Shown piece after piece: positions 34,222-37,505 of a stretch of 39,232 bases of DNA (the stretch's first letter is position 1; each line of letters starts with the position of its first letter). Position numbers and translations under genes: made by a program. The DNA lies in the NCBI GenBank assembly GCA_023249105.1, contig JAHFDG010000037.1, positions 1 to 39,232 of the forward strand, in the 5' to 3' direction. A model generated the notes under the pieces. That model saw nothing but the letters and a program-made list of their open reading frames with translations. It did no database searches and was not told the DNA's origin. Source of the DNA: Candidatus Methanoperedens sp. (GTDB taxonomy: Archaea; Halobacteriota; Methanosarcinia; Methanosarcinales; Methanoperedenaceae).

Positions 34222-34346
34222 TATAGCATGATTCTTAAATTTCCGTAATATATTAACCGCAGATGAACGCAAATGAACGCAGATGTGCGTTATACGTGGT
34301 GTTATCTTCCCAGAATCACTTACGATTAGATAAGAATTTGACTATA
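34222..34346 (+). mobile_element. MITE copy 1 (121 bp plus TA duplications)
   Basis: The 125-bp block is a perfect inverted copy of 36943-37067. It starts TA-TAGCATGATTCTTA and ends AAGAATTTGACTA-TA; the ends are imperfect inverted repeats (TAG at both ends, shared ATTCTTA). Identity between the copies stops exactly at the TA on all four sides. TA duplication is a mark of IS630/Tc1-mariner transposition. The core carries the direct repeat GATGAACGCA. Confidence 0.85.
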
Positions 34347-34369
34347 GTTAATAATCGTAAGGGTAAAAT

Positions 34370-34624
34370 ATGCGAGGCAGGTTAGATATCATTATCGATA
34401 TTCTCGAAGTGGCGAAAGATGGTGTCAATAAAACAAGCATCGTCTACGGAGCGAATCTGAATTTCAGACTTGCGGACAAGTATCTTGCTTTACTGCTGAA
34501 ATATGGATTGATGGAGAACAGGCAGGATAAATATATAACAACAGACAAAGGAAGATTGATTTTGGGAAAAGCTAAAGAGATCACCCTACAGTTAGAAGCT
34601 CCGAGCCGAACGCAGTTGATTTGA
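34370..34624 (+). CDS. Small winged-helix DNA-binding protein
   Basis: The 84-residue protein has the compact archaeal winged helix (HTH_45-like): MRGRLDIIIDILEVAKDGVN, KTSIVYGANLNFRLADKYLA, LLLKYGLMENRQDKYITTDK. The last helix follows the wing. These small proteins bind DNA as dimers and often act near mobile or stress genes. It starts 24 bp after MITE copy 1, so its promoter must lie inside or beyond the MITE. Its target is unknown; the ferredoxin gene 118 bp downstream is a candidate. Confidence 0.8.
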   Translation: MRGRLDIIIDILEVAKDGVNKTSIVYGANLNFRLADKYLALLLKYGLMENRQDKYITTDKGRLILGKAKEITLQLEAPSRTQLI

Positions 34625-34765
34625 CTTCTTCTTTTTATAGAAATTAAAGTATTCCTGATGTCAACTTTTCTCTTCCCTCTAATTAATGATAAAAAACTAT
34701 CAATTATTTACAAATTTTAAAGCAAAACAGACTTAATTTACTTGCTCATATCTTTTATAATAAAA

Positions 34766-35814: not shown

Positions 35815-35845
35815 GTGAACTACCTCACGCTAAAGCTGTGAGGCT
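35815..35845 (-). ncRNA. tnpB 3' hairpin, likely end of the IS200/IS605 right end and omega-RNA
   Basis: On the minus strand the sequence GCCTCACAGCTTTAGCGTGAGG folds into a CCTCAC/GTGAGG stem overlapping the tnpB stop, and GTAGTTCAC follows. This layout (hairpin then TTCAC-like end) matches right ends of IS605-type elements, from which the guide RNA of TnpB is made. The guide would start at about 35814 leftwards. RNA production is not shown. Confidence 0.55.
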
Positions 35846-37216
35846 TCCTGATTCATAAACCGAACTTGCTTTAACATATGGGATACTGTTTAAGTATCTC
35901 AGGGACATTAAAGTAGAGGATTCAATCTCCACAGGCGTTAATTCGGTACGCACCGTACCTACTTGTCTTAATCCTTCATTCAGGATACAGTTGCTTGAAT
36001 TGTGATCTCTATCCATAATATTATCACATTTCCTACATACATATATCCTTTCATCCAGTGCCATTTCCTGAATGTTCCCACATTTTGAGCATGTTTTGGT
36101 TGAAGGGTACATTCTATCCACTTCAACAGGAGTATGCACCTTTTGCTTGAGTGTGCTGATCATCCCTCCTATTGCGGTTGATAGAATTTTCCTACCCCAT
36201 ATCCGCTGCCATGCTTTTACGTTTTCGTCCTGAAAGCAAACTGTTCCGTTGTTCTCTTTCAGATGAGAAACTATCTTGCACTTGATATCTTTCTTGACGT
36301 TATTGATTCTATCATATTCCTTATTGATCTTGATAATTGTCTTATACCAATTCCTGCTATGCTTTTCCTGTTTGCTAAGTTGTCTGCATAGTTTTCTTAG
36401 CTTATTGGTGACGGGTATAGAGTATTGGATTCCTATGCCGTTTGTTAATGTCAGCTGCCTGGAAAGACCGAAATCAATACCTATCTGCCCTTTTGGAACT
36501 GGTTTCTTTATCTTTTCGTGATATGTTGTTACGGATAAGTAGTAGTCGCCATGCTTGCAGATAAGAGTACCAACAGCGATATCCGAATTAGCAGGAATCT
36601 GTTTTAATCCCCTGACTTTTATCTTTTGCTTGATTCCTTGGACTCTGACATGGTTCTTATCAAGAATCTTATAGGTATTCCCATACTGTTTCAGGGGAAT
36701 CGAATGCACCAGACTTTTGTATTGCAGCTTTCCTACTTTGTGACCGTTTTCTTTGAGTTCATGAAGTCCTCTGATATTATCCTGGGTTCTCTGTATCAAA
36801 CTCTGTTTCATGTGAGAGGATAAATAATTAAGAGGACGGATCTCAAAAACGTCTTTAACTTTCGCTGGTACTTCCTGTATCTTATCATCAAAATCCAGGT
36901 CGAAAACATTATCCTGAGCTATAATGTGATTGTATAACCATTTATAGTCAAATTCTTATCTAATCGTAAGTGATTCTGGGAAGATAACACCACGTATAAC
37001 GCACATCTGCGTTCATTTGCGTTCATCTGCGGTTAATATATTACGGAAATTTAAGAATCATGCTATAGCTTCAAGGAAAAGCATATTCAGATGGTGTCTA
37101 GATTCACTATTGAGATGCGATTTGTCTATCTTTAGTTCATATACTCTGCAAGTCTGGTTTTTTCTCTTTTCTTTAGTTGCTTTCAGAGTGGCTTTTATAG
37201 TTTCGCTTTTGGTCAT
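35825..37216 (-). pseudogene. tnpB: TnpB (RNA-guided nuclease of IS200/IS605), interrupted by a MITE
   Basis: The N-terminal part starts at an ATG at 37216: MTKSETIKATLKATKEKRKN, QTCRVYELKIDKSHLNSESR, LFLEA, and breaks at 37065. After the MITE it resumes KWLYNHIIAQDNVFDLDF and continues uninterrupted through 36811-35825. The RuvC acids are intact: D in GIDFGLSRQ, E in CFQDENVKAW, D in MDRDHNSSNC. The zinc finger is CSKC...CRKC. Joining the halves at one TA gives LEAKWLYNH and a protein of 422 residues, a normal TnpB length. As it stands, stop codons in the MITE end the frame; translation from the internal ATG at 36811 would lack about 90 residues. No tnpA is present. Confidence 0.92.
36943..37067 (-). 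mobile_element. MITE copy 2, inserted in tnpB (121 bp plus TA duplications)
   Basis: This is the perfect inverse of 34222-34346. The core is 36945-37065, with TA at 36943-36944 and 37066-37067. Removing 123 bp (the element plus one TA) fuses GAAGC-TA-AATGG and restores the tnpB frame exactly. This fixes the element's boundaries and its target duplication. Confidence 0.92.
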
Positions 37217-37352
37217 ATTCTTTTTTGTTTTCACTTATGATTCAGATGTGGTGAAATAGTACATATCTCTATTGAGAGCGGAGTGAAAGTATTATTGCAA
37301 GGGGTACAATTCATCCCCTTCCTGAAGGCGAGTGGCTTTCTCTACCCCTTGA

Positions 37353-37505
37353 CCCCAACGATGTAAGGAAGTAGATGTATATATATTTTCAAGTAAGACA
37401 AAATTAGCAGCGGTGGAATGGAATAAGGAGCACGAGATAACACCGGTGCCAATAGCCCTTATAAGCAACCGTCATATGCATAACTATAAAGAATGGTTTG
37501 ATTAA
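37353..37505 (+). other. Orphan ORF remnant (50 codons, no start)
   Basis: Frame 3 is open from 37353 to a TAA at 37503 and reads VYIFSSKTKLAAVEWNKEHE, then ITPVPIALISNRHMHNYKEW and FD. The text is protein-like and probably the 3' end of an unidentified gene cut by transposition. I do not recognise the family. Confidence 0.3.

Follow-up and report, generated by a model that had tools for sequence, protein, structure and literature searches.

IS630 elements insert at TA, and the TA is duplicated in the process (PMC2170065). In Haloquadratum walsbyi, 17 MITE insertions in IS605-type transposons have been tabulated, and MITEs whose transposase has been lost or broken have also been described (PMC3119063). 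The locus analyzed here lies in a 39,232-nt stretch of DNA (hereafter, the window) from the methane-oxidizing archaeon Candidatus Methanoperedens sp. (GCA_023249105.1, contig JAHFDG010000037.1), and all results come from assembled contigs, the assembly consisting of 134 of them. As in H. walsbyi, one mobile element is found inside another, but the archaeon and the MITE family are different, and here the insertion is within the coding region of tnpB and leaves an exact join (compare PMC3119063). With ISY100 and the IS630/Tc1-mariner elements (PMC2170065), the system shares the TA target and its duplication, a transposase composed of HTH and DDE domains, and short non-coding elements that have the same ends; it differs from them in that one end is unlike the other (TATAGCATGATTC versus TATAGTCAAATTC), the transposase is encoded in two overlapping frames, and the matching transposase was not found in this assembly. 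The interrupted protein resembles ISDra2 TnpB (PDB 8BF8 and 8H1J) in its RuvC-I and RuvC-III aspartates and its zinc finger, with an E value of about 6e-11, and the element that holds it resembles the ISDra2 TnpB/IS200/IS605 system in having, at its right end, a conserved 3' RNA region and, at its left end, TTAC. In contrast to ISDra2 TnpB, however, QDE rather than E occupies the aligned RuvC-II position, and no tnpA exists within the element. Nested mobile elements are common, and the locus is an unexceptional example of one mobile element within another. Its features are listed in Table 1.

Table 1. Positions of the split tnpB, the inserted MITE and associated features in the window
Feature	Position	Strand	Remarks
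IS200/IS605-type element (tnpB-only, IS1341-like) holding the split gene	35815..37362	-	homology of copies runs from TTAC to TTCAC
TTAC target/probable TAM beside the left end	37363..37366	-	first bases common to several copies
tnpB, N-terminal part	37068..37216	-	ATG at 37216; with the MITE in place, 52-aa product (MTKSE...LFLEAIA)
TA on the 5' side of tnpB, target duplication copy 1	37066..37067	-	
MITE, TAGCATGATTC...GAATTTGACTA	36945..37065	-	121 bp, non-coding; carries the 30-bp AACCGCAGATGAACGCAAATGAACGCAGAT motif
TA on the 3' side of tnpB, target duplication copy 2	36943..36944	-	
tnpB, remainder (RuvC and zinc-finger region)	35825..36942	-	OrfB_IS605 and Cas12f1-like_TNB; stop included
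First in-frame start codon of the tnpB remainder	ATG at 36811	-	
3' right end and presumed omegaRNA scaffold	35815..36000	-	overlaps the last tnpB codons; ends TTCAC
Second TA-MITE-TA copy	34222..34346	+	identical; just downstream of the Rieske gene

Read along the minus strand, the interrupted region is ...CTTGAAGC TA (TAGCATGATTC ... AATTTGACTA) TA AATGGTTATACAATC..., in which TATAG...CTATA (37067-36943) spans 125 bp, that is, TA + 121 + TA. The initial annotation had located both parts of tnpB correctly on this strand, and its statement that they rejoin in frame as LEAKWLYNH when the MITE and one TA are removed is borne out by the sequence: 37216-37068, one TA and 36942-35825 together give 1269 nt, corresponding to 422 codons and a stop, with LFLEAKWLYNH across the restored join and no other stop or frameshift in the rest of the gene. 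With one TA, the longest frame over the join from stop to stop contains 428 codons, compared with 66 with zero TA, while keeping TATA breaks the frame and gives nothing of note across the join. The predicted pre-insertion (empty-site) reading at tnpB is GAAGCTAAATGG. Uninterrupted tnpB genes, the search for which had been proposed as a check, were found in related genomes, and the EAKWLYNH join appeared in them as predicted and without a gap. Within the same genome, an intact paralogue (L034 on contig C44, with a 428-codon open frame and 86% DNA identity) has FIEAKWLYNH at the join, where its DNA, GAAGCCAAATGG, aligns gaplessly with the rejoined tnpB. FLEAKWLYNHI occupies the position in L077 (METP1), L078 (BLZ2), L081, and L086, so that these four and L034 all agree at the boundary, and L082 and L083 have a related sequence that is likewise gapless; the named hits among the relatives with tnpB homologues are from Candidatus Methanoperedens/Methanosarcinales. 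At the sequence level, these comparisons confirm that a 121-bp MITE inserted in the tnpB of another mobile element and split the gene. The presence of two identical 125-bp copies on one contig of a 134-contig assembly might raise the suspicion that a short repeat caused two loci to be misjoined by assembly or recombination, with tnpB never truly interrupted, but a misjoin would not yield two parts of one gene plus exactly one spare TA, and both sides rejoin exactly in frame and match the intact paralogues, which leaves such an artefact with a negligible probability. Separately, what seems to be one frameshifted tnpB copy, with a first part of 257 codons, was observed in several Methanoperedens genomes (L077, L078, L086, L089, L090, and L092).

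The claim that the locus gives proof of TA target duplication holds in part. The TA flanks, the length and the frame fit speak for duplication, but "proof" is too strong a word, since the two join bases are CA or AA in the homologues and TA is found in the window lineage only. The argument for duplication consequently rests on the symmetric TA flanks, the exact length, a second MITE insertion, L049, and the TA specificity of IS630 elements (PMC2170065). Removal of the L049 MITE with one TA kept results in a 246-codon frame whose join is gapless relative to homologues, and for both tnpB and L049, the length relative to homologues and the frame fit only when one TA is kept. It is therefore very likely, although not proven, that the TA target was duplicated at the tnpB insertion.

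A search for further copies of the 121-bp element, also suggested at the outset, yielded the identical one in the window and a family that extends across the genus. The two TA-MITE-TA copies in the window are identical at 125/125 positions and lie in opposite orientation. The identity of the MITE copies, together with the otherwise clean tnpB frame, suggests a recent event, presumably mobilization in trans. The second copy and an HTH_45 gene (34222-34761 together) sit between the genes for the Rieske protein and the 4Fe-4S ferredoxin, two genes that are immediate neighbors in several related genomes. The exact element ends proposed in the initial annotation are upheld both by the tnpB join relative to intact homologues and by matching ends in relatives. 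The MITE's own two ends, which form imperfect terminal inverted repeats, are alike at 18/30 positions. Each end motif (≤3 mismatches) was found in 14 of the 31 same-genus genomes, while the reversed control pattern gave 0, and the same-genus elements with TATAG...CTATA borders and similar ends are mostly 138-155 bp in length, while some reach 187-188 or 344 bp. A match to the end motif on a viral contig (L155) lacks a TATAG end and was attributed to chance. Full family copies contain an inverted CCGCAGATGAACGCAGAT stem, of which only one arm is left in the window copy, its right half being different. As single-stranded DNA, the MITE shows no unusual folding stability (z, -0.51), in line with its lack of the right palindrome arm possessed by the full relatives. 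Between ends of the same kind, sister MITEs hold other palindromes, CACCGCAAAGAGCGCGAAG in L041/L044 and CCACAGAGTCACAGAGAACACGG in L043/L051.

Differing palindromic cargo (CACAGAG type and CGCAAAG type; L043/L051 and L041/L044) between like MITE ends suggests that cargo may be exchanged between MITEs. The 30-bp unit AACCGCAGATGAACGCAGATGAACGCAGAT, which occurs in the window at 37005-37034 and 34255-34284, forms the palindrome stems inside MITEs of the genus and is also found many times as a solitary unit in this genome; at ≤1 mismatch it is dispersed over 13 places (L003-L020), compared with none for the reversed control. Two cyanobacterial plasmids carry it at 29/30 and 28/30 identity. No occurrence of CGCAGATGAACGCAGAT was found in the literature searched.

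The likely source of mobility was found in other genomes of the genus. In L068 (G020), ends of the same kind, separated by 1111 bp, enclose a transposase that has HTH_32, HTH_33, and DDE_3 domains, a domain set that, with these ends, is the arrangement of an IS630 element. Copies of this IS630-type element of ~1.1 kb exist in G014, G024, and G005, and a fragment exists in G008. The ends of the MITE agree with those of the IS630-type elements at 24-27/30 (left-left) and 22-23/30 positions (right-right), compared with 17-19/30 crosswise. No relatives of the matching transposase were found in the window's own genome at E ≤ 1e-20. The single DDE_3 gene of that genome, on contig C56, was considered as the partner of the MITE and rejected because its ends differ. 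That locus (L151) comprises an IS630 element of a different type together with an IS1-like gene and RTX-like repeats, the labels of the neighbors being our own reading; since the RTX-like and IS1-like neighbors look foreign, C56 may be a stray contig and is possibly contamination of the genome bin. In several genomes (L068, L095, L098, and L104), the IS630-type transposase is divided between two overlapping frames with an offset of -1 and an A-run at the overlap, and programmed frameshifting is probable.

The insertion can be explained as follows: a non-autonomous MITE with IS630-family ends would be cut and pasted in trans by a transposase of the IS630/Tc1-mariner type, with a TA (GC-TA-AATGG) in the tnpB of a tnpB-only IS200/IS605-type element as its target, and its insertion would duplicate the TA and truncate TnpB after 50 codons. 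We are highly confident that an IS630-type MITE, presumably mobilized in trans, landed in tnpB in this manner and cut the protein short, very likely with duplication of the TA. The genome contains many copies of the 30-bp unit that lack MITE ends, as would be expected if the insertion were instead a spread REP-like repeat based on the CCGCAGATGAACGCAGAT unit that arrived by some other route, with no IS630 transposition. The unit, however, covers the middle of the element only, the ends are IS630-like and paired in relatives, and the sister MITEs with the same ends hold other palindromes; spread as a REP-like repeat is accordingly very improbable.

The initial annotation also held that TnpB was knocked out while its RuvC residues and 3' RNA stayed intact. 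As for the knockout, the protein is indeed cut: the 5' product is 52 aa long and consists of 50 tnpB codons followed by I-A-stop, while the start codon next available in the remainder would drop at least 94 N-terminal residues. It is likely from this that the function of TnpB was lost. The rest of the gene is free of any other stop or frameshift and offers an ATG at 36811, so that an insertion just as described might still permit a functional TnpB from the split gene, by an internal start or otherwise; nevertheless, the conserved LFLEAKWLYNH stretch is among the at least 94 residues that would be gone, and the downstream frame meets a TAA near the border of the MITE, within the element, six codons ahead of TGG. 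We regard a functional product as improbable and loss of TnpB as the preferred reading. The encoded domains are those of a TnpB, with PF07282 above the cut-off, PF01385, and similarity to ISDra2 TnpB (PDB 8BF8) at E 5.6e-11. The statement on the RuvC residues stands for RuvC-I and RuvC-III, whose aspartates are present (IDFG and DRDHN), but has to be qualified for RuvC-II (36220-36240, minus strand), which reads QDE, with Q at the canonical E in alignments to 9YYG and 8IAZ. Q in place of the canonical E, with E two residues on, is found in all homologues examined, indicating a lineage trait rather than decay. In pro-Fanzors, an alternative E lies six residues ahead of the zinc finger (PMC10711439); by reading of the TnpB sequence, such a residue is absent here.

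The 3' RNA region, on the other hand, appears intact, as had been proposed. It is identical to that of the paralogue at 184/186 positions, and identity between copies at third codon positions amounts to 78-97% over the final 180 nt, compared with 50-66% in the gene body, a pattern seen in the other homologues as well as in the split copy and the paralogue. For the final 150 nt, the predicted structure contains 6 pairs in which both sides have changed, against 2.7 after shuffling, and 198 of 200 shuffled sequences fold less well than the window RNA. An Rfam search with the 3' RNA region gave no match at E ≤ 1. The data support an intact omegaRNA region in which third codon positions are additionally constrained, and gene conversion could add to the 184/186 identity of the split copy and its paralogue. 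An empty site of the IS605-type element was not found in the loci of related copies examined. The split locus would keep the capacity to make the 3' RNA. Because its scaffold is nearly that of the C44 paralogue while its guide is its own, this guide could serve the intact TnpB in trans; that the split locus is an omegaRNA-only locus with the guide GTTGTTGGTTTCGTTATTGT, by which TnpB from C44 could target the empty site of this element, is a rather unlikely but conceivable extension.

For an archaeal IS630-type MITE family, the exact pre-insertion site and the natural ends are now available, and the family is tied to an IS630-type element of the same genus. The locus would also represent a natural knockout of the TnpB protein in which the guide-RNA region is untouched, in a genome that possesses an intact paralogue whose scaffold is almost identical, and this combination makes the trans use of TnpB guides testable.
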